Shown here: positions 3,832-13,858 of the stretch, piece after piece
How the letters are laid out: the number at the start of each line of letters is the position of its first letter
How positions within the stretch are numbered: the first letter of the stretch is position 1
DNA from: a candidate division BRC1 bacterium HGW-BRC1-1
GTDB lineage: Bacteria > Sumerlaeota > Sumerlaeia > Sumerlaeales > Sumerlaeaceae
Assembly (NCBI GenBank): GCA_002842095.1
Contig: PHCB01000001.1
Coordinates: 1 to 64,000, forward strand
Length of the DNA stretch: 64,000 bases
Direction of reading: 5' to 3'
Program-made: the position numbers and the translations under genes
Notes under the pieces: generated by a model
Told to the model about the DNA's origin: nothing
The model's input: only the letters and a program-made list of their open reading frames with translations
The model's database searches: none

Positions 3832-5961
3832 ATGATATTTCCCATGGCCATCAATGTTATCTCCAATCCGGGCGCCATTGCGGCCCTTCTTGTTCTTTGC
3901 GCACTCCCCCACTCGATTCAGGCGGCACCACCCACCGAACCCGGTCGCCACGAGGTTACCTTCACCAGTTCGTGGGACGCCACCACGCAACCTTATCAAC
4001 TCTATATTCCGAAGGCGGCGGCTCAGAAAAAAGGGGGCAAGGCAGGCCCGCTCCCGCTGGTCGTCGTCCTCCACGGGCGCGGGGTAGACCACCACGCGTG
4101 GTTCAATCTCACACCCATCCTCAAGAAAGCGGAGGAGCGAGGCTGGATCGTGGCCGCGCCTTACGCGCGGGGAAACGTCTGGTATCGCGCCGCCGCCGAA
4201 CGCGACGTGCTGGATGTAACCGCCCAGGTGGCGGCCAATCTTCCGGTTGATCCCTCGCGCATCTACCTCGCCGGCCACTCCATGGGCGGATGGGGAACAT
4301 CATGGATCGGCCTGCGCAACCCGCAGGTGTTCGCCGCGATGGCCTCCATGAGCGGATGGGCTCCGGCCGACCTGCTGCCCAACGCGCGACTGGTGCCGGC
4401 GCTCTATATCCACGACGAACACGACCCCATTGTGCCGGTGGCAAATTCCCGCTCCGCCGTCGCGGAATTGAGCCGCCTCGGCATCTCGCACCAATACCGC
4501 GAGGAAAGCGGCTACGGCCACGGCAGCGGACTCATCGGCGATAACTTCGACCGCATGTTCGACTGGTTCGACGCCCATCCACGCCAGCGCCATCCGAATC
4601 GCTTTGCCGTGGCGAGCCGCGGCGGAACCGGCCTGACCGGGGAAGTTCGCGTGATCGACTCCCCCGAGCCATGGCGCGCCGCCGTGGTGGATGTCGATCG
4701 CACCGAGACCGACACCCAGACCCTTACCGTGACCAACGCCACGCGGTTCGCGCTGGCTCCCAACGACCAGCCAACCACAACCATCCTGAACGGTGCGTTC
4801 ATCCCCACGCCGGCCCACGACGAATGGATTGTTTTCCTCGAGAAGTACGGAGCCTGGAGCATTGACGAATCGGGCGCTCTCCCCGATTCCAATCCGTTTG
4901 AATCACAACCCATGCGATGGAAAACCGATGCCACGGCGACCACCGAACCCGTTCGCATTCAGCAGCGGGTCGCCGACATACTGCGCCAGTCCACCGACGC
5001 CGACCTCTGCCTGATGAACAGCGACTGGCTGGTAGAACCCGACCTACCCCTGACGCCCGCGCGTGTAGCCAACATCTTCGTTTTCCCTGATGAACGCCTG
5101 GCAGTCGTTGAGGCGAACGGTGACCAGATCACTCAAACCCTCGCCGGGATGAAATCCAGTCCGCTGCGCATCCCCGAGCTCTTCCCAACGGATACGACGC
5201 TCACGTCGGAAACCCGTTACAGCATGGTGATGCCCGCCGCCATGGCAGGCGATTTCAAAACCAGCGACGTCAAGATTCTCGACCGCCCCATCGCCGCTTT
5301 CCTGCTCGACGCAATCGAATCCGGCGACGAGATCACCTCGCAGTCGGCCGCGCGCCAGCTTGAGCCATCGCCCCATCTCGTGCTGCAACGCCTCATGCCG
5401 CTCACCCACTCACGGCCCCGCGCCACCACGGCCTCGGTCGATACCATCATGCTCCACTTCAGCAGCGATCTGATCGCGGGGCCGGGGAATCCCTTCGATG
5501 TGGAAAGCATCATCGCCATCTATCAGAGGTACGGGGTCTCGGCCCACTACCTCATCGACCGCCAGGGCAACGTGCGGCAACTGGTGGATGAATCGCGCGA
5601 GGCGTTTCATGCAGGCAAAGGCACTGCCCCCTCCGGCGAGCCGCGCACGAACCGGATGAACGGCTACTCCATCGGCATCGAGATGCTGGCCGTGGGCGAC
5701 GTCGACGACATGAAGCCGTTCATGACCGCGGAGAAATACGCCGACTACCTGAAGTTCGTTCCGCACAATGTGGGCTACACCCCGCTGCAATACGGCGCGC
5801 TGCGGGCGCTCATCGCCGACATCCGCACCCGCCACCCGGCCATCGCCCTCGACCGCGCCCACATCATCGGCCACGAGGATTATGCCCCCGGTCGCAAAAC
5901 CGATCCGGGCGCGTTGTTCGACTGGTCGAAGATCGACCTCCCCCGCAAACCCAACGCGTAA
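3832..5961 (+). CDS. Secreted bifunctional protein: alpha/beta-hydrolase esterase + N-acetylmuramoyl-L-alanine amidase
   Basis: This 709-residue protein starts with a signal peptide ending near AQAA-type residues 28-32. Residues about 40-250 form an alpha/beta hydrolase of the PHB-depolymerase/feruloyl-esterase kind: VVVLHGRGVDHHAW, nucleophile GHSMGGWG (Ser150), DEHDPIVPV (Asp198) and GYGHGSG (His230). A middle segment of about 270 residues has no recognised motif. The last about 170 residues are an Amidase_2 (AmpD/T7-lysozyme) domain, with TIMLHF supplying one zinc His and GHEDYAPGRKTDPG supplying the second His and Asp. It probably acts outside the inner membrane on acylated glycans and peptidoglycan. 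The fusion is unusual. ATG at 3844 is an alternative start. Confidence 0.8.
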   Translation: MIFPMAINVISNPGAIAALLVLCALPHSIQAAPPTEPGRHEVTFTSSWDATTQPYQLYIPKAAAQKKGGKAGPLPLVVVLHGRGVDHHAWFNLTPILKKAEERGWIVAAPYARGNVWYRAAAERDVLDVTAQVAANLPVDPSRIYLAGHSMGGWGTSWIGLRNPQVFAAMASMSGWAPADLLPNARLVPALYIHDEHDPIVPVANSRSAVAELSRLGISHQYREESGYGHGSGLIGDNFDRMFDWFDAHPRQRHPNRFAVASRGGTGLTGEVRVIDSPEPWRAAVVDVDRTETDTQTLTVTNATRFALAPNDQPTTTILNGAFIPTPAHDEWIVFLEKYGAWSIDESGALPDSNPFESQPMRWKTDATATTEPVRIQQRVADILRQSTDADLCLMNSDWLVEPDLPLTPARVANIFVFPDERLAVVEANGDQITQTLAGMKSSPLRIPELFPTDTTLTSETRYSMVMPAAMAGDFKTSDVKILDRPIAAFLLDAIESGDEITSQSAARQLEPSPHLVLQRLMPLTHSRPRATTASVDTIMLHFSSDLIAGPGNPFDVESIIAIYQRYGVSAHYLIDRQGNVRQLVDESREAFHAGKGTAPSGEPRTNRMNGYSIGIEMLAVGDVDDMKPFMTAEKYADYLKFVPHNVGYTPLQYGALRALIADIRTRHPAIALDRAHIIGHEDYAPGRKTDPGALFDWSKIDLPRKPNA

Positions 5962-6064: not shown

Positions 6065-9000
6065 TCATCCAATAATGACCTTCAAATCGTGAAGGTGTGT
6101 CTCTACAAAGCGAATGCTGGTTTCCTGATCACCGAGCGTAATTGGGACCTCGCAATCCCCCGTGCTGACCAATTTTGCTTTCAGGTCAGCCATGGCATCA
6201 TCAACGCTCTTTAAAAACTCCTCGTACATGGCTGCACACAAGGGGCAAAGGGCCAAATACTGCGCTTCATGTTCCTTAGGCAGATACTTTTTAGAGAGCA
6301 CTTCTTTTTTCTCGAAGTAGTGCGTTCCGTCGCGCTTTCGGAAGGGCATCTCCTCTTTGCATATCTGGCAGACCATTTGGTCCGCCTCGTTCGTGTATTG
6401 GCTCCGGAGCCATGTGATCGGGTCAATGGCACCATTGGTGGTCCGAACACTTCTTTCACGCTTCTCGTATACTTTATCGGGCGCGTCGTTTAGTTGCTCG
6501 CCAAGATGCTCTTGACGTCGTTCTGGATTGGCCACTGGCCTCGAAGGAAATGATGGTTGGATTTGCTCTAAATTTGGCCGATATTGGTCAAGCAAGCTAT
6601 CTAATGAATGACCACTGTCTCGAATTAATCGCGCTAATTGAGCCAATTTTAGTGCTTCATCTGCGGATTCAAAACCCATTTTTTTCGCTTCATAATTTTG
6701 TGAGATATATTCTTCAGAAAGTTCGTTCGCGCGCCCCCCAAAACCGATTGCGGTCAACAACCCATTACGATCGTCATAAGGGAAATCTGTACGCAAATCA
6801 TCTCTTGTCATATCCTTCGCTTTATAGAATGCTCCGGATTTATCAGGAATCCACTTGCAATTCTTCAGATGATATATTAGTTGAGAATCTATCTCTTGGG
6901 TTAAATACTCCTGATTGGGTCTGTACCGTGCCTTAGACACCCGTGAATCAGCTTCAACCAATGCTTGCCACACCAATCGGCTTGCAGAGATAGTTTGGAG
7001 TTTGAGGTATCTATCCAGATTGTCAATCGAATAGTCCTCGTTAATACAGGTAGAGGTTTTTCTGGTCCCACCAAGACCTTTCATGATCTCTTGACGCTGT
7101 GGGTTATACCATATAGGTGCTTGAGAGACATTGACTCTGTACATAACTCCTACTGCTCGCAAAAAACTTTTGAAATCGGCATATTGCTTTTCATTTAACT
7201 TGTCCTTATAACCACCCCACAAGACATCCTTTTTATGAATGGTCATCAACTCCTTAAGTCCTGTCTCCTCAAATGGCAAATCCATGCAAAGCTGCTCTGG
7301 CATACGCCAATACAGTTTACCATTGGACAACTCACCGAGCAGGAAAGTATGTTTCTTGAAAAGTTCTGTATCTTCATTCTTTTTCCAGTAGACCACAAAT
7401 TGCGCAATCTCTTTATAGTAGGCACCAACAATAGAATCGGGCGGGTAGAAGCCTAATCTCAACTCGATATCTGTCTTTTCATCAAATGTGCGCACTCCAA
7501 TATGTTCAAGAAATGCGACGGCAAAATCTCTTTGTGCTACAGAGCGTCCGGTGCTATAAACGGTTGGTTTCACAAACCGAATATCCCGTGTTGGGGCGAT
7601 CCCGTGTTCAGTTGGGAAAAATGCTTCCTGAGGCAACACATGTTCGATCGATTGATCCACCTCAATTCTGACAATACGCAAGTCATCTGCGTACAAATAT
7701 TCAGAGTGCTCTTCACATGCCTCTCCCAGCAGAGCATAAAAACGTAGGACCCAAGCATCATCTTTCTGAGCAATCCACGCCTCAATGGTCTCGCGCTCAT
7801 CGTCACCAGTTTGGCTAATTGTGCTTGAAAGTTCCGACCATCCCCAGCTGTCGATCTCAAGGCTATCTAGAAACCTATCCTCTCGTTGGTTCTGCTGAGG
7901 CGGATTAGCCGCCCACAACGGTGGCTCACATATCGTTAATAGCGACAAATCTTCATCGCTCAGAACTTCGGCAATTTTGGCTGGACCTCTGTAGAGCCCA
8001 TCAGCCGGGGCGTGCGTTCCGGACCGTGTTGGCGTGAAGCGTTCCGCTTTGAACGCGCCCACAACCGCCGCTCGAATAGGTTCATAAAACCCCGAGAGGC
8101 TATCTGTCTGGTTAGGCAATACAGCAAGGAACCCCATAGTCAGCATGCCCCTGTCTCGAATGTCGGTGAGCGAATCAACAACGAGTTCAGCAATACAATT
8201 ACGAAGTTGGCGGTTTGCTTCACAGTCTCGGACGCTGTCACGAGCTACAGTCGAGGCGAACGGCGCATGAATATGGAATCTCAGTTTGGATGTTTCTTTC
8301 TCAGCTGGAAAATAGATGGAGACCTGCGCGTGTTCTACAGGGATTATCTTCCATTTAGGGTGATCTTTCTTCTTGTCTTCTCGCTGAACACTATAGGCGA
8401 TGGCAATTCGACAGGTTTTGGTCTTACCATCTTCATCATCCACATCTACGTCTTTCTGATACCGCAACCAGTGGGTAACTGTTTTTTCACCACCAGGATG
8501 AGAAACCCGAATTTCCATATCCCCATTTTTACGTTTAATCCGCTCCAAAGACCCTAAAGACCCATCCGGAAGCGAATATTCAATGAGGTGGATGTGGTTA
8601 AGAAACAACAGTGTGTTGTCACCTAAATCTTGCAGCCCATTCTTAATCTCTTCTACGGCTTGGGGAGGTAGCTTTGTTGGATGGTCAAATGGAATGATAA
8701 TGCGTGTTTCTTTATTCACAAAAGAATTTATTTTCACGCCATTGGTTACAGGAACCACGAGGTCTTGAATACGGAAATGGAAATCTCCCGAGTGGATTTC
8801 TGGTGTGCTAGTATAGGCGAAGACTGCCTTAAACCCAACGCCGAATTTACCAATTAATGTTGGATCGTCACGTTTTGTGCTTGCACCAATACTGGTGATC
8901 GACTCTACATCGAGCAAATCAAATAGGCGTTCTCCGTTATGTTCAAACCCGATTTCTTCATTAGAGAGAGTAAAACGCACTGCACTGGCGCACGTATCTT

Positions 9001-9151
9001 CAGCATTTTGCAAAAGTTCGTAAATAAAATGAGCGTTATCTGGATATAGTTCAGTTAGAAGTCGTTTTATCCCTTCTTCAAAGTTATTTTCTTTATTGAC
9101 ATCAATCCACCGTTGACGTCTCTTTACAAGAGATTCGATTGTATGTGCCAC
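6065..9151 (-). CDS. Sacsin/Hsp90-like GHKL ATPase with C-terminal zinc cluster (putative defence protein)
   Basis: This 1028-residue protein starts at GTG at 9151, whose G is shared with the upstream TAG stop (TAGTG), after a GGGAGGG ribosome-binding site. The first about 200 residues are a Bergerat-fold ATPase of the sacsin N-terminal type: helix motif YELLQNAEDT (Asn49, Asp52), FEHNGE, and GKFGVGFKAVF near 101-111. The long middle has no recognised domain. Near residue 935 a CQIC pair, an HYFEKKEV segment and a CPLC pair form a treble-clef cluster like a degenerate HNH; the catalytic HH is not evident. The coding DNA is markedly A+T-rich against its neighbours (hand count 23/60 G+C at 6601-6660, 42/60 at 5341-5400), suggesting transfer. 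The function is unknown; a defence role is inferred from the partner gene. Confidence 0.75.
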   Translation of the reverse strand: MAHTIESLVKRRQRWIDVNKENNFEEGIKRLLTELYPDNAHFIYELLQNAEDTCASAVRFTLSNEEIGFEHNGERLFDLLDVESITSIGASTKRDDPTLIGKFGVGFKAVFAYTSTPEIHSGDFHFRIQDLVVPVTNGVKINSFVNKETRIIIPFDHPTKLPPQAVEEIKNGLQDLGDNTLLFLNHIHLIEYSLPDGSLGSLERIKRKNGDMEIRVSHPGGEKTVTHWLRYQKDVDVDDEDGKTKTCRIAIAYSVQREDKKKDHPKWKIIPVEHAQVSIYFPAEKETSKLRFHIHAPFASTVARDSVRDCEANRQLRNCIAELVVDSLTDIRDRGMLTMGFLAVLPNQTDSLSGFYEPIRAAVVGAFKAERFTPTRSGTHAPADGLYRGPAKIAEVLSDEDLSLLTICEPPLWAANPPQQNQREDRFLDSLEIDSWGWSELSSTISQTGDDERETIEAWIAQKDDAWVLRFYALLGEACEEHSEYLYADDLRIVRIEVDQSIEHVLPQEAFFPTEHGIAPTRDIRFVKPTVYSTGRSVAQRDFAVAFLEHIGVRTFDEKTDIELRLGFYPPDSIVGAYYKEIAQFVVYWKKNEDTELFKKHTFLLGELSNGKLYWRMPEQLCMDLPFEETGLKELMTIHKKDVLWGGYKDKLNEKQYADFKSFLRAVGVMYRVNVSQAPIWYNPQRQEIMKGLGGTRKTSTCINEDYSIDNLDRYLKLQTISASRLVWQALVEADSRVSKARYRPNQEYLTQEIDSQLIYHLKNCKWIPDKSGAFYKAKDMTRDDLRTDFPYDDRNGLLTAIGFGGRANELSEEYISQNYEAKKMGFESADEALKLAQLARLIRDSGHSLDSLLDQYRPNLEQIQPSFPSRPVANPERRQEHLGEQLNDAPDKVYEKRERSVRTTNGAIDPITWLRSQYTNEADQMVCQICKEEMPFRKRDGTHYFEKKEVLSKKYLPKEHEAQYLALCPLCAAMYEEFLKSVDDAMADLKAKLVSTGDCEVPITLGDQETSIRFVETHLHDLKVIIG

Positions 9152-12100
9152 TATAAAGCCCTCCCTGAAATATGAATCACACCATACGCAACCGGACCGG
9201 CGACAATATCCGCTCTCTCCAGAGCGATGTCCAGATCCTGGATTCGCCTTGCGTAGTCTTGCTCTGCGGCGGCAATTTGAGACCGGCGCATTTTCTGAAT
9301 TTTCTCGTTGGTCGCTTGGCTGAGCTGTTCATCTAGAAGAGCGATCCGCGCCCGTTGACTGGTTGACAGGCTCTCCCGCCGGTACTCGGCCATTTCCTGG
9401 GTTTTTTGTATGTGCCTGGTTCTGGCATCGTTCCACGAGCTGTAGTGCTGGGCGTCCAAGTTATCCCAGACCAAAGAGCCAAGCCCATCAGGCGTTACAT
9501 CGGGACAATCCGCAGCTCTCTCCAAGAGGCGACCAAGATGCTCGGTCACCAAAGCGGTGGAAGCTATAGGCTTAAGCACCAAGTCTTCCCTGATGCCGTG
9601 AAAACGCCACTGGTAAATAGCAAACTCATAACGCCCGGCAGGTATCTCATTTGACATGACGGACAGGCTACAGATGATTCTTTGCTTGTTATCTAATAAC
9701 TGAGCAGCCTGTTTCACCAATGGGTGGAGGGGCATGATGAAGGCGGCCTTGGGATGCTCCATGGCGCAATCAGATTCGAAGGTTATGGGTAAATGCTGGC
9801 TCCCACCCTTAAGCCAATTTTCCCACTCGCGATAGGCAGAAGTGGTCTGCCTGGGAAGTTGCTGAAAATCCCTTAAAAGGTGGGCACGGGATTCTTGGGC
9901 CAGTCGGAGGGTCTTGAGTTGCTTTTCGCCCAGGATAAACTCCTGGTCTTTACCGCAAACGTCCTGCAGGTATAGGGTCACCAACCTGCGGAGTGAATCT
10001 GGTGATAGCCAGAAACTTGACGCTTCGGCAATTTCGCGGTTCAGCTGATCTTGAGGAAGGCGAATGCCAAACAGTTCCGCCTGCTTCTGCTCCAAGTCTT
10101 CCTGCTCCTGAATGAGCCGGATTTTGTTATCGGATAGTTGCTGGAGCTTCCCCTTACGGTCCTCCTCACTCAGCTCATAGTTTTCTGCGATGTTTTTGAT
10201 CTCACGAGTGATTTCCCCAAGTATTTCCTCACCCCCTCCGAGGGAATTATTGAAGACCCCGATACGCACCAAGCACCGCTCATAAATATCCGCATCCACG
10301 GTTCCCGGCGTGATCAAGTTGACGATGGCGACGCTCTCGCTCTTCTGGCCGTTTCTGTCGATACGACCGATGCGCTGTTCTACCCGCATAGGATTCCACG
10401 GAAGGTCGTAGTTCACGATGCAGTCGCAGAACTGGTAATCAAGACCTTCACAGCCGATTTCGGAAAACAACAACAGATCGAGACAGTCTTCGTCATCCTT
10501 CGGTTTCTCAAAACGGGCGCGAAGGGTTACACGATCCTCATCCGGCGTTCCCCCATGGACCAACGCAACGCGAAAACCGTCCTTGCTGAGATGGTCGAAG
10601 AGATAGCTCAGGGTATGCCGGAAGCTGCTGAACAACATGACCTTGTTGTTTGGGAGGCTTTGCTTATCGCGGATGATGCTACGTAAAGCCTCGAGTTTGG
10701 GGTCGATCGCCTCCAGAGTAAGAGCCGCCTTCAGCAATCTCTGAATTTGGCTTTCGATGGGAATGATGGCCTCGTCCTGAAGGACGCCGGTGTCATCCGC
10801 TTCTTCCCAAGACAGTTCATCCATATGTCGATTGAGGATTGACTCAAGAAAGGGTGCAAGACCAAAGAGGCAACTGGCCGCTTGTCGCCTGATGGTGGTC
10901 ATCATGAACTTCACGTTAAGCCCGTTGTGAATCTGGCTGAAAATTTCAGCCTGTATTCTCAAAAGTTCGTCATGCAAAAGCTGCTGAGCCGGAGTGAATG
11001 GTACGACGACCGTCTCGGGCTTCCTGACCGTGAAATTCCCAATATCGCGGCGGCGCGTTCTATTGATGATACCGGCGAAGGTGTGCATTCCCTCCGTGTC
11101 GGAGATCATCCTTATGCGATTCTCGTGTGTAACCCCGCCCCCCAAGAGTTCAGACCGAACCCGAACAAAATCCGGATTGTGTCTGAGTATAGCCTGGCCC
11201 CAAGGCGTGGATGCCGCCTGATCGAGAGCTTCCATTGCCAGGTTTTGCCACTCCGGTGTTTGAGACCGCATCGCCGACACCGCCTGATTGATAAACGGGT
11301 TCGGCTCAGCCATGTGCGAGAAACTCTCCTGATCGATGATGAGATCGGGGCGAAGCGTATTGAGAAGAACAAATAGATCGTTGCTGCCCAGCTGGATCGG
11401 GGTGGCCGTCAAGAATACTACAGCGTCCGCATGATCGCAGAAAAACTTCACGGCCTTGTGGCTGTAAGTCTCCTGATTTCGGATGTGGTGAGCCTCATCG
11501 ACAATAACCAGATCGAAGCGGGGTGGCGGATCAAGGTCCAGAAGGCCTTTTTTTCGCTTCCGCTTTCCTTCGGGAGCCGAACCATACAGGAGTGCTTCAT
11601 CGAACAGGGAGAACGGGACGATGCTTTTCAGGTGTTGCTCCGGCCAGACACCATCCAGATCCATCTCGTTGATGCAATACCTCAAGGTGGAGCCATCAAG
11701 ATGGGTAAAACGCTCTTCGAAGCGTTTCATTTCGTTCATCCACTTTTTCTCAATAACCAGCGGGCGCGGGCAGACAATGAGTACGGAACGTATCTCACGC
11801 CTCGCCTGAAGCTCGCGCAGGATGAGACCTGCTTCGATGGTCTTACCTACTCCAACGCCATCGGCAATGAGCAAGCGTGGACGATCCGACCGGATAAACC
11901 GCAACACCGGCCTGAATTGATACGGGATGAAGTCAACACGGGCGGCGTTGAGAGAGTAGAGGGTGGACAGCCCCGGATACTTTATCTGTAGCGCGGTGAG
12001 ATAGGCATGGAAATGGTCGCGGGGTAAGCTTTTTTCTTTTTCCTCACTCCGGTCTTCGACTTGCAATTGCGACGCGTAAAACGTTTGGGTTGTCCCATCT

Positions 12101-12735
12101 ATGAAGACATTGAATCGATTCTCGGGCTTTCCGGGCAACACGGCAATCACAGCGCCACGGCTTGATGGGTTTGATTTAGCGAAGACGATCTGCCCGGGTT
12201 CAAATTCGGCCACATCGTTTTTCCTTTCCGGAAGCGCGGAAGGCGTCTCTGTGCCTGAGTCTGGTTGCGACTGTGTCTCCAACGCGCGGAGGGCGGCCTT
12301 TGTCTTTCGTAAATCTTGAACCAAATTGTCATCCGCACCGATAACAACCGCAAATCGCTGAAGGGTATCCAGATCCCGGTATATGTCGTCAACGGGGAAG
12401 CCCTCTGTGTTTGCGTGCGCCCAGTGATTGCGAACCGTTTGCATTTCCTTGACGAAGTGACGGGCTTCGGAGGTCAGGTTAAGGCTGTTAGAAATCTGAT
12501 ACCAATTCTGGTCCAGAACCCGAAGAAGTCCTGCGAGATCAAGGCCACTCATCGACGTAATATTGCATTGCTCCAACCGTCTCTTTTGATGCAATGACAG
12601 TGTATTTAAGACAGCCTTGTTCCACCAGTCGTCAAATAGCGGCGGTAAGACTCTTTCTATAAATATGGCGAGCTGCTCGGCCACGTCGCTAAGATGCTTC
12701 GCAACAGCACCATAAATTTGGGACTTTTCTTCCAT
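9151..12735 (-). CDS. HEPN (Swt1-type) + SNF2 helicase (putative defence protein)
   Basis: This 1194-residue protein has four parts. Residues 1-150 are a helical Swt1-like HEPN domain with the RNHWAH motif (Arg102, His107, an R-x4-H of the RNase-type HEPN fold). Residues about 178-225 form a small beta domain (PGQIVFAKSNP...). Residues about 270-840 are an SNF2 helicase with DGVGVGKT (292-299), DEAH (413-416), a TATPIQ motif III and RIGRIDRNGQ motif VI. A long coiled-coil tail contains two further helical stretches. It resembles the SNF2 proteins of defence islands such as DrmD of DISARM, but no DISARM partner genes are present. It is the first gene of the pair and overlaps the ATPase gene by one base. 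Confidence 0.8.
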   Translation of the reverse strand: MEEKSQIYGAVAKHLSDVAEQLAIFIERVLPPLFDDWWNKAVLNTLSLHQKRRLEQCNITSMSGLDLAGLLRVLDQNWYQISNSLNLTSEARHFVKEMQTVRNHWAHANTEGFPVDDIYRDLDTLQRFAVVIGADDNLVQDLRKTKAALRALETQSQPDSGTETPSALPERKNDVAEFEPGQIVFAKSNPSSRGAVIAVLPGKPENRFNVFIDGTTQTFYASQLQVEDRSEEKEKSLPRDHFHAYLTALQIKYPGLSTLYSLNAARVDFIPYQFRPVLRFIRSDRPRLLIADGVGVGKTIEAGLILRELQARREIRSVLIVCPRPLVIEKKWMNEMKRFEERFTHLDGSTLRYCINEMDLDGVWPEQHLKSIVPFSLFDEALLYGSAPEGKRKRKKGLLDLDPPPRFDLVIVDEAHHIRNQETYSHKAVKFFCDHADAVVFLTATPIQLGSNDLFVLLNTLRPDLIIDQESFSHMAEPNPFINQAVSAMRSQTPEWQNLAMEALDQAASTPWGQAILRHNPDFVRVRSELLGGGVTHENRIRMISDTEGMHTFAGIINRTRRRDIGNFTVRKPETVVVPFTPAQQLLHDELLRIQAEIFSQIHNGLNVKFMMTTIRRQAASCLFGLAPFLESILNRHMDELSWEEADDTGVLQDEAIIPIESQIQRLLKAALTLEAIDPKLEALRSIIRDKQSLPNNKVMLFSSFRHTLSYLFDHLSKDGFRVALVHGGTPDEDRVTLRARFEKPKDDEDCLDLLLFSEIGCEGLDYQFCDCIVNYDLPWNPMRVEQRIGRIDRNGQKSESVAIVNLITPGTVDADIYERCLVRIGVFNNSLGGGEEILGEITREIKNIAENYELSEEDRKGKLQQLSDNKIRLIQEQEDLEQKQAELFGIRLPQDQLNREIAEASSFWLSPDSLRRLVTLYLQDVCGKDQEFILGEKQLKTLRLAQESRAHLLRDFQQLPRQTTSAYREWENWLKGGSQHLPITFESDCAMEHPKAAFIMPLHPLVKQAAQLLDNKQRIICSLSVMSNEIPAGRYEFAIYQWRFHGIREDLVLKPIASTALVTEHLGRLLERAADCPDVTPDGLGSLVWDNLDAQHYSSWNDARTRHIQKTQEMAEYRRESLSTSQRARIALLDEQLSQATNEKIQKMRRSQIAAAEQDYARRIQDLDIALERADIVAGPVAYGVIHISGRAL

Positions 12736-13858
12736 TGTGAACCCCTCCCGACTTTCTTGTGTTTACGAAAGATCCAATGGAACCACGGAGCCCAACAGAT
12801 TGAAATGCTCCGAAATTCCTATGCGCTCGTTCTGAATCATAGTTCCTTGCCCAACCCAATTGCATTTGGTCGTTAGCAGAGAACTGGCGAATGGCAACAA
12901 AAAGTGCATCTTGTATTAATGGGACACGGATAGCTTTTGCAGATCTATTTGTGATTCGTGTGGTCAAAGCATCGGACCAATAAGTGTAACGCAAAAAAGG
13001 ATTGGCGACAACTCGGTAATCCACGTAAGTTGTGATTAGTGGCAGGCTCGGACCGCTGATTTTTTCCCTTCTCACATCTGGATGGGTCGAGCTAACGGAA
13101 ATATCAAGTGAAGTTTGGGCTACCGTCCGAGTGGAAATCGCTGGCACTGGCACCAGTCGACAATACTGCACCCAATGAGCTGGCTCGAGCGTTCCATTAC
13201 CAGGTGCGGCTTGTTCTGCCAATGCCGGCGACCGTTCGTGTTATTTCACCCGTCGGGCCATGGAGCGTTCCTCAAGCCGGTCATAAATATCCCGAAAACA
13301 CAATCGTCATAAGATGATCCGGGACTGCTGAAGAATCCCCGGTGCTTCCGGGATGATGTTAGAGTGGCTTGTTGGTTAGCCCCGCAGAGCAGGAAAGGTT
13401 TCCCATAAAGACACAGAGGAACGCAATCTCAGGGCGGGCGTTTTGGGGGCTTGCACACCGGTTGCACACCGGTTGCACACCGGTCACACCCCAGTTGCAA
13501 TTCGATGAAAAAGTGGGGCGAGGCGCCGACCTGGGGAGGACAAGGGAGTGCTGAAGAATCCACCACCGTTTCTGGCATGTTGTTTGCCTTGATTAACTGC
13601 ATAGGATGCCTTCCATGCATCCCATCACCTCGAATTGCACCGCGTTACCCGCGACTTGCGCTTGAAAAAACCGGCAGCAGGACGCGTCCCGTTGCGGAAA
13701 CAGAAAATTCAGCAGTCCCGATCCTTAGCCACAACCTCTGAGTTCGTTTTGCAGACAATCCGCTGTGCGACCCAGCCCCACCGGATTTGCCTTGCCCTGG
13801 GCGTTCTGTGGGGTAACTCCATCTGCGACCCATCAAAATTCTCCGGAGTAGACCGCCC
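12736..13858. other. Long spacer, mostly non-coding, with one orphan open frame
   Basis: This 1.1-kb stretch separates the two-gene island from the DUF3370 gene. On the minus strand a frame stays open from 13240 into the start of the helicase gene (about 177 codons from a TTG at 13222). It has protein-like composition in part, but no ATG, no good ribosome-binding site and no recognised family, so it may be a gene remnant. A 13-base word, TGCTGAAGAATCC, occurs at 13326 and again at 13549. An 11-bp triple tandem repeat lies at 13451-13483. No tRNA, terminator or transposase was found. The helicase promoter must lie near the left end. Confidence 0.5.
13451..13483. repeat. Three tandem 11-bp repeats
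   Basis: TTGCACACCGG is repeated three times without gaps and followed by a partial TCACACC copy. The 11-bp period places the units on the same face of the helix, as in iteron or activator-binding arrays. It lies about 375 bases upstream of the DUF3370 gene and about 715 bases upstream of the helicase start. Its function is unknown. Confidence 0.7.

Follow-up and report, generated by a model that had tools for sequence, protein, structure and literature searches.

Two overlapping genes lie near the start of a 64,000-nucleotide stretch of DNA from candidate division BRC1 bacterium HGW-BRC1-1 (contig PHCB01000001.1, positions 1 to 64,000; hereafter the window), one for a SNF2 helicase that carries an N-terminal HEPN domain and the other for a sacsin-type GHKL ATPase. 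Given the conserved pairing of the two genes, their mobility, the swaps that separate their relatives and the defence-rich flanks, they probably form a horizontally transferred modular defence system, in which a fixed RapA/DrmD-like motor would be combined with a variable Hsp90-like sensor body and an interchangeable N-terminal toxin, the HEPN domain killing by abortive infection. The pairing, the body swaps and the exchange of N-terminal modules are apparent at the level of sequence; from these we infer defence activity, with sensing, coupling and killing as its putative steps. In the window, both open reading frames are full length and free of internal stops, and their parts are as follows.

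9151..12735, minus strand: helicase gene (1194 amino acids, ATG start), with the order HEPN(Swt1), TUDOR/SH3-like, SNF2, RapA-like C-terminal region
12337..12687, minus strand: HEPN (Swt1-like) domain, residues 17-133 (Pfam), with the R102-x4-H107 active-site motif, in the exchangeable effector slot
12055..12204, minus strand: TUDOR/SH3-like domain, residues ~178-227, with five predicted strands (residues 183-226), where HEPN-less relatives begin
6065..9151, minus strand: sacsin-type GHKL ATPase gene (1028 amino acids, GTG start), with a 1-nucleotide overlap with the helicase stop
6557..9151, minus strand: variable GHKL body cassette, residues 1-~865 (ATPase and middle region), delimited by nucleotide break points at 9163 and 6556, by the G+C content of third codon positions (GC3) and by identity matrices
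6557..6601, minus strand: low-confidence linker between body and tail, residues ~851-865, where the predicted local distance difference test score (pLDDT) is below 50 at 852-863, coinciding with the swap break point
6065..6556, minus strand: conserved GHKL C-terminal zinc domain, residues ~866-1028, a degenerate McrA-like HNH with its zinc Cys kept and its catalytic His lost

Conservation and spread of the gene pair

An earlier note on this DNA had described a Swt1-type HEPN domain with an intact R-x4-H motif fused to a full SNF2 helicase, and this holds: the Pfam HEPN_Swt1 domain scores 77.9 bits (cutoff 27.5), R102 and H107 are intact, and Pfam SNF2 (residues 287-477) and Helicase_C (residues 680-796) follow. 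The SNF2 motifs GVGKT, DEAH, TATP and QRIGR are near-invariant in 72 aligned sequences, and the closest solved fold to the helicase model (pLDDT 73.4) is RapA, over most of its length; the TUDOR name is given by analogy with RapA/BrxHII (PMC12839542). At the junction with the next gene (CAGGGAGGGCTTTATAGTG), the stop TAG and the start GTG have one G in common (TAGTG), just as had been noted, and a good Shine-Dalgarno-like AGGGAGG for the GHKL gene is located inside the end of the helicase gene. The GHKL protein carries a Pfam SACS domain (residues 27-130, 67.5 bits, cutoff 32.8) and matches NCBIfam NF047352 (85.9 bits, cutoff 50), its E45/N49/D52 residues and GxxGxGFK motif being 96-98% conserved in the alignment. 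Its AlphaFold2 model (mean pLDDT 86.7) is closest to the folds of TRAP1/Hsp90 (TRAP1, E 1.4e-9) and of the sacsin SR1 module, which by sequence is far ahead of all its other matches in the PDB (5v47, E 3.5e-20).

A scan of one genome per species for helicase relatives gave 80 loci in Thermodesulfobacteriota, Chlorobiota, Acidobacteriota, Planctomycetota, Chloroflexota, Poribacteria, Latescibacterota and others, with up to 89% identity to the window helicase. A sacsin-GHKL gene stands downstream, adjoining or near, in 73 of the 76 loci with downstream DNA, mostly overlapping or a few bases away; of the three others, two are truncated at contig ends, and several loci have two GHKL genes for one helicase. 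Chance association is excluded because the pair is conserved across phyla. The co-occurrence on which the earlier note had made its case depend is also found genome by genome: seven of 297 evenly sampled Desulfobacterota genomes contain the helicase, and the GHKL tail (E<1e-30) is present in the same seven, with one additional remnant interrupted by a stop (hypergeometric p ~2e-13, ignoring relatedness). Among 40 genomes of the window's own phylum there is no other orthologue, the best match being 32% identical over part of the protein. Copies are also found on a conjugative plasmid of Ensifer, on a large Rhizobium plasmid and on a viral contig (L115, 91% identical to the window). The pairing, the patchy occurrence and the plasmid and viral-contig copies together indicate a module that is rare, mobile and kept together. 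One Desulfobacterota genome (L135) holds a degenerate copy, where the HEPN domain is an open reading frame of its own, parted from the helicase by transposase-like genes, and a further transposase-like gene stands ahead of the GHKL gene.

This distribution bears on whether the pair could serve a housekeeping or stress function, with a RapA-like RNA-polymerase or chromatin remodeller working alongside a sacsin-like chaperone and the HEPN domain limiting translation upon misfolding, as proposed for animal sacsin. The RapA-like fold of the helicase is consistent with such a role, as is the joint presence of Hsp90-like modules and a HEPN domain in sacsin (PMC3710099), and the Poribacterial copies do adjoin ordinary genes. 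Nevertheless, this function is very unlikely for genes so patchily distributed, with near-identical copies in different phyla and on plasmids and a viral contig; the body cassette swaps and toxin replacement described below would also be unexpected for a housekeeping chaperone.

Exchange of the GHKL body and of the helicase N-terminus

Mean pairwise amino acid identity among the relatives is 66% for the helicase and 34% for the GHKL protein, and the difference is local. Between the window and the Desulfofustis glycolicus locus (L005), nucleotide identity is 88.8% between positions 12711 and 9163, the latter a few codons before the helicase end; no similarity is detectable across the 2.6-kb GHKL body, and it returns in the GHKL tail, from 6556 to 6070 (87.3% over 487 bp). 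The viral-contig copy, 93.4% identical to L005 over 4.56 kb (an Mrr gene and the helicase), breaks at the same place and becomes similar again only in the last 330 bp. Three body types are found in seven close systems (helicases 77-95% identical in amino acids), with identities of 59-66% within a type and 23-32% between types. These types are scattered relative to the helicase, the window's body being common to L132 and L006 and not to the closer helicase relatives L005 and L115, and where two helicases share at least 85% amino acid identity (23 sequence pairs), the bodies are less than 45% identical in 12 cases. The AlphaFold2 low-confidence linker (pLDDT <50, residues 852-863) falls where the body swap ends. 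The foreign base composition that had been attributed to the ATPase gene as a whole is confirmed but concentrated in the body, with a GC3 of 41.4%, compared with 56.1% in the tail and 60.8% in the helicase.

Judged by these alignments, the GHKL body is an exchangeable cassette, swapped between otherwise near-identical systems. The swap pattern is as expected of an exchangeable specificity subunit, and the body probably recognises different invaders. The earlier note had cast the helicase as sensor or motor and the GHKL protein as a switch; the hypervariable, swapped body is more plausible as the recognition subunit, so that the GHKL protein is probably more than a switch and the helicase would rather be the fixed motor and chassis.

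The GHKL tail has a different history. As a profile, the final ~166 residues match the EcoKMcrA HNH domain (E 3.6e-6), and the terminal Cys cluster that had been remarked upon is conserved (Cys928, Cys931 and Cys969 in 100, 95 and 95% of the sequences). The YLEVHHV motif of McrA aligns with YFEAVEL/YFEAVEA, meaning that the catalytic HH has become VE in the main type. With its Cys pairs kept and its catalytic HH changed, the tail appears to be a zinc-binding domain, probably non-cleaving, that mostly travels with the helicase. An active HNH nuclease was considered for this tail and rejected, the catalytic His being missing.

At the other end, none of the 39 aligned HEPN-bearing sequences departs from R102 and H107 of the HEPN domain, which shows selection on this site. 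The HEPN state changes six times on the helicase tree, at least five of these changes being supported (one scored absence, L038, is a contig-edge cut), and HEPN-less helicases start at the TUDOR-like domain. In four closely related HEPN-less systems (L070, L036, L037 and L040) the slot is refilled: in L070, by a gene for a BrnT ribonuclease (RNase) toxin (40.2 bits, cutoff 34.5) that overlaps the helicase through ATGA, and in the other three by a DUF6883 gene that overlaps a DUF4926-fused helicase. At the DNA level, the helicases of L070 and L037 share 91% identity. DUF6883 and DUF4926 form an adjoining small two-gene unit in most places where they occur elsewhere in that family, and this unit seems to resemble a toxin-antitoxin pair; the literature on DUF4926 and DUF6883 yielded nothing useful. 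RNase toxins and toxin-antitoxin-like units in the position of the HEPN domain are the best evidence for HEPN as an effector and, as the earlier note had proposed, it is most likely the toxic effector, a predicted RNase. HEPN as an obligatory effector was rejected, since many relatives are without it. In the Rhizobium and Ensifer plasmid versions, an open reading frame of 176-184 amino acids and unknown family (L117:7426-7956, L118:7352-7906) overlaps the start of a HEPN-less helicase gene and could represent a further occupant of the slot.

Slot contents of this kind, together with the plasmid copies, could also suggest an addiction (toxin-antitoxin) module, where the GHKL protein or the helicase would merely restrain a HEPN toxin and stabilise mobile elements, since BrnT/BrnA-like and DUF6883/DUF4926 modules can stand in for HEPN. 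We find this highly improbable: roughly half of the relatives keep the pair with no toxin domain at all, two proteins of more than 1000 amino acids go far beyond the needs of an antitoxin, and the variable part is the partner and not the toxin.

Genomic surroundings

Defence genes are common near the relatives. The 119 genes nearest to 37 HEPN-type loci were scanned with PADLOC (E 1e-10) and compared with 119 control genes located elsewhere on the contigs, in ten of the same genomes; 358 PADLOC families were matched in the flanks and 64 in the control, an enrichment that supports the expected proximity to defence genes and is semi-quantitative, its fold difference approximate, because the tally counts families and not genes. 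Three or more flank genes matched each of ten families (PDC-S68, PDC-S02, type IV RecD, mREase_IV and others), and no family was matched by more than one control gene.

Some neighbours recur at fixed places. Type I and III restriction-modification genes adjoin the pair in several loci, and a gene for a HARE-HTH and Mrr-type restriction endonuclease lies directly upstream of the helicase in three (L005:8962-9996, L006:2243-3046, L017:8861-9964), so that some systems resemble three- or four-gene operons. A PDC-S68 RecD-like helicase, a PADLOC phage-defence candidate, directly follows the GHKL gene in L006 (9747-13490), L012, L071 and L115; between L115 and L006, which differ by a body swap, this gene and the GHKL tail are both conserved. 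In seven loci, HEPN-bearing and HEPN-less (L007:13525-14241; also L027, L031, L036, L039, L053 and L070), a third gene of ~215 amino acids with no confident Pfam match stands between helicase and GHKL and may encode an accessory subunit.

The upstream Mrr genes raise the possibility of a restriction-like system. The GHKL protein would then be a DNA clamp or looping factor of the MORC/MutL type, with its variable body reading the sequence of DNA or its modification; the SNF2 protein would translocate, an associated nuclease such as the Mrr-type neighbour would destroy invader DNA, and HEPN would only be a back-up. There are precedents: operons of GHKL (MORC/paraMORC) and SWI2/SNF2 genes have been predicted to be restriction systems (PMC2292703), HEPN serves as a back-up co-effector in BREX-related systems (PMC12839542), and the McrA-like tail hints at nuclease ancestry. 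We nevertheless consider restriction unlikely: the pair has no methylase or nuclease as a conserved companion, only the two genes are present in most loci, including that of the window, the HNH tail is without catalytic histidines and the GHKL is of the sacsin type, as its PDB match indicates.

At the window locus itself, a scan for promoters and terminators did no better than on shuffled sequence, and no convincing insertion scars, flanking repeats or tRNA were found. The genes that flank the pair in the window are not adjacent in family members (~64 kb apart in a one-contig relative), and insertion is therefore not demonstrable by empty-site comparison. An 11-bp unit (TTGCACACCGG) forms a short tandem repeat at 13451-13494, in the extended non-coding DNA upstream of the helicase gene. 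On the other side of the pair, 3832-5961 (plus strand) encodes a 709-amino acid protein, an unusual fusion of esterase-like and N-acetylmuramoyl-L-alanine amidase halves that mostly match separate proteins in relatives.

Relation to known systems and proposed mechanism

Parts of the pair are known. The best PADLOC match of the helicase is DrmD of DISARM (E 7e-115 over residues 178-1055), a member of the same SNF2 subfamily, and that of the GHKL protein is TmtA of Tiamat, to which its body is homologous (PDLC03972, E 3.9e-64 over residues 3-780). That the pair would be a divergent piece of one of these systems and not a system of its own is hardly credible, however. The helicase scores 310.8 bits with the NCBIfam DrmD model NF038317 (cutoff 610), and it differs from DrmD by its N-terminal HEPN domain and its sacsin-type GHKL partner. 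DrmA, DrmB, DrmC and the methylase are absent from the two-gene window locus and none is recurrent around the relatives; DISARM membership was rejected on both the DrmD cutoff and gene content. The best TmtA profile is matched only at positions 6-804 of 1302 (the first 60%), with no full-length match to the TmtA profiles (1063-1782 positions), and the GHKL protein ends in a different domain, the McrA-like zinc tail. Tiamat acts as a single-gene system, unlike the GHKL protein here, which has a helicase partner in nearly all loci and in the same seven Desulfobacterota genomes. A literature search under the names TmtA and Tiamat alone returned only unrelated papers.

Similar architectures have been described elsewhere: (i), a Swt1-type HEPN with an active motif fused to SWI2/SNF2 (WQE_15321) is a single entry in a 2013 table (Anantharaman et al., PMC3710099), with no GHKL partner, cassette exchange or effector slot in the searched text of that paper; (ii), the DUF499-centred BREX-related systems and Hma have a TUDOR-SNF2-RapA-like helicase, a HEPN effector on a core subunit and hypervariable recognition domains (PMC12839542), but in those systems the DUF499 AAA+ ATPase carries the HEPN domain and the core includes a methylase, whereas the pair described here has no methylase, an Hsp90-like ATPase and a helicase that bears the HEPN domain; (iii), the prokaryotic MORC/paraMORC operons also join a GHKL ATPase with a SWI2/SNF2 helicase (PMC2292703), but their GHKLs are unlike the sacsin family and they usually include separate DNases and methylases; (iv), animal sacsin has the SACS/SR1 ATPase module and a HEPN domain in the same protein, but it is a single giant eukaryotic chaperone and has no helicase. 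The earlier note knew of no system with exactly these two proteins. We found no description of the pair or of its two-ended modularity in the literature searched, which covered few subscription journals, although DrmD, TmtA and the 2013 HEPN-SNF2 fusion make it known by part.

Several observations weigh against a modular defence system with a HEPN toxin. About half of the relatives (Poribacteria, Latescibacteria) have neither HEPN nor an obvious toxin and lie beside ordinary genes, yet keep the pair, so that the toxin is not essential to its core function. The L070 helicase N-terminus, encoded next to the BrnT gene, resembles a CopG/BrnA antitoxin at 21.5 bits, below the Pfam cutoff of 28. The GHKL tail is exchanged at times (L032 vs L054, L036 vs L070), so that tail and helicase are not strictly co-inherited, and the variability of the body could reflect escape from phage inhibitors instead of recognition. 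Finally, the accessory immune cassette proposed in the earlier note fits a two-gene, horizontally mobile module whose relatives have defence-rich neighbours, but the window copy itself stands alone, with no adjoining defence genes.

We still favour the modular defence system and propose that it would act as follows. The GHKL body would recognise an invader feature, for example a phage protein or a nucleic-acid structure, and ATP-dependent closure of the Hsp90-like clamp would then produce a signal that reaches the helicase via the conserved, inactive McrA-like zinc tail. The SNF2 motor could act on DNA, or on RNA polymerase like RapA, to block the invader, and/or change shape so that the N-terminal toxin is released; in the latter case, the HEPN RNase would cut cellular RNA and growth would stop (abortive infection). 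HEPN-less members might rely on the motor alone or on a toxin supplied in trans.

It is possible, and we suggest it tentatively, that the pair represents a new class, with an SNF2 chassis set between a toxin slot (HEPN, BrnT/BrnA-like or DUF6883/DUF4926) and a cartridge-like Hsp90/sacsin sensor docked via an inactivated McrA-type tail. Recognition and killing modules would then be exchanged separately from each other, much as in NLR/STAND proteins, except that the sensor would be an Hsp90-type ATPase. If true, this would place the sacsin/Hsp90-type ATPase, whose role in bacterial immunity is poorly understood, as a variable invader sensor, and it would mean that an SNF2-based defence system can have its whole toxin replaced. 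Naturally occurring swaps, where the same helicase is found with another body or another toxin, are ready-made for mapping recognition and killing to separate parts.

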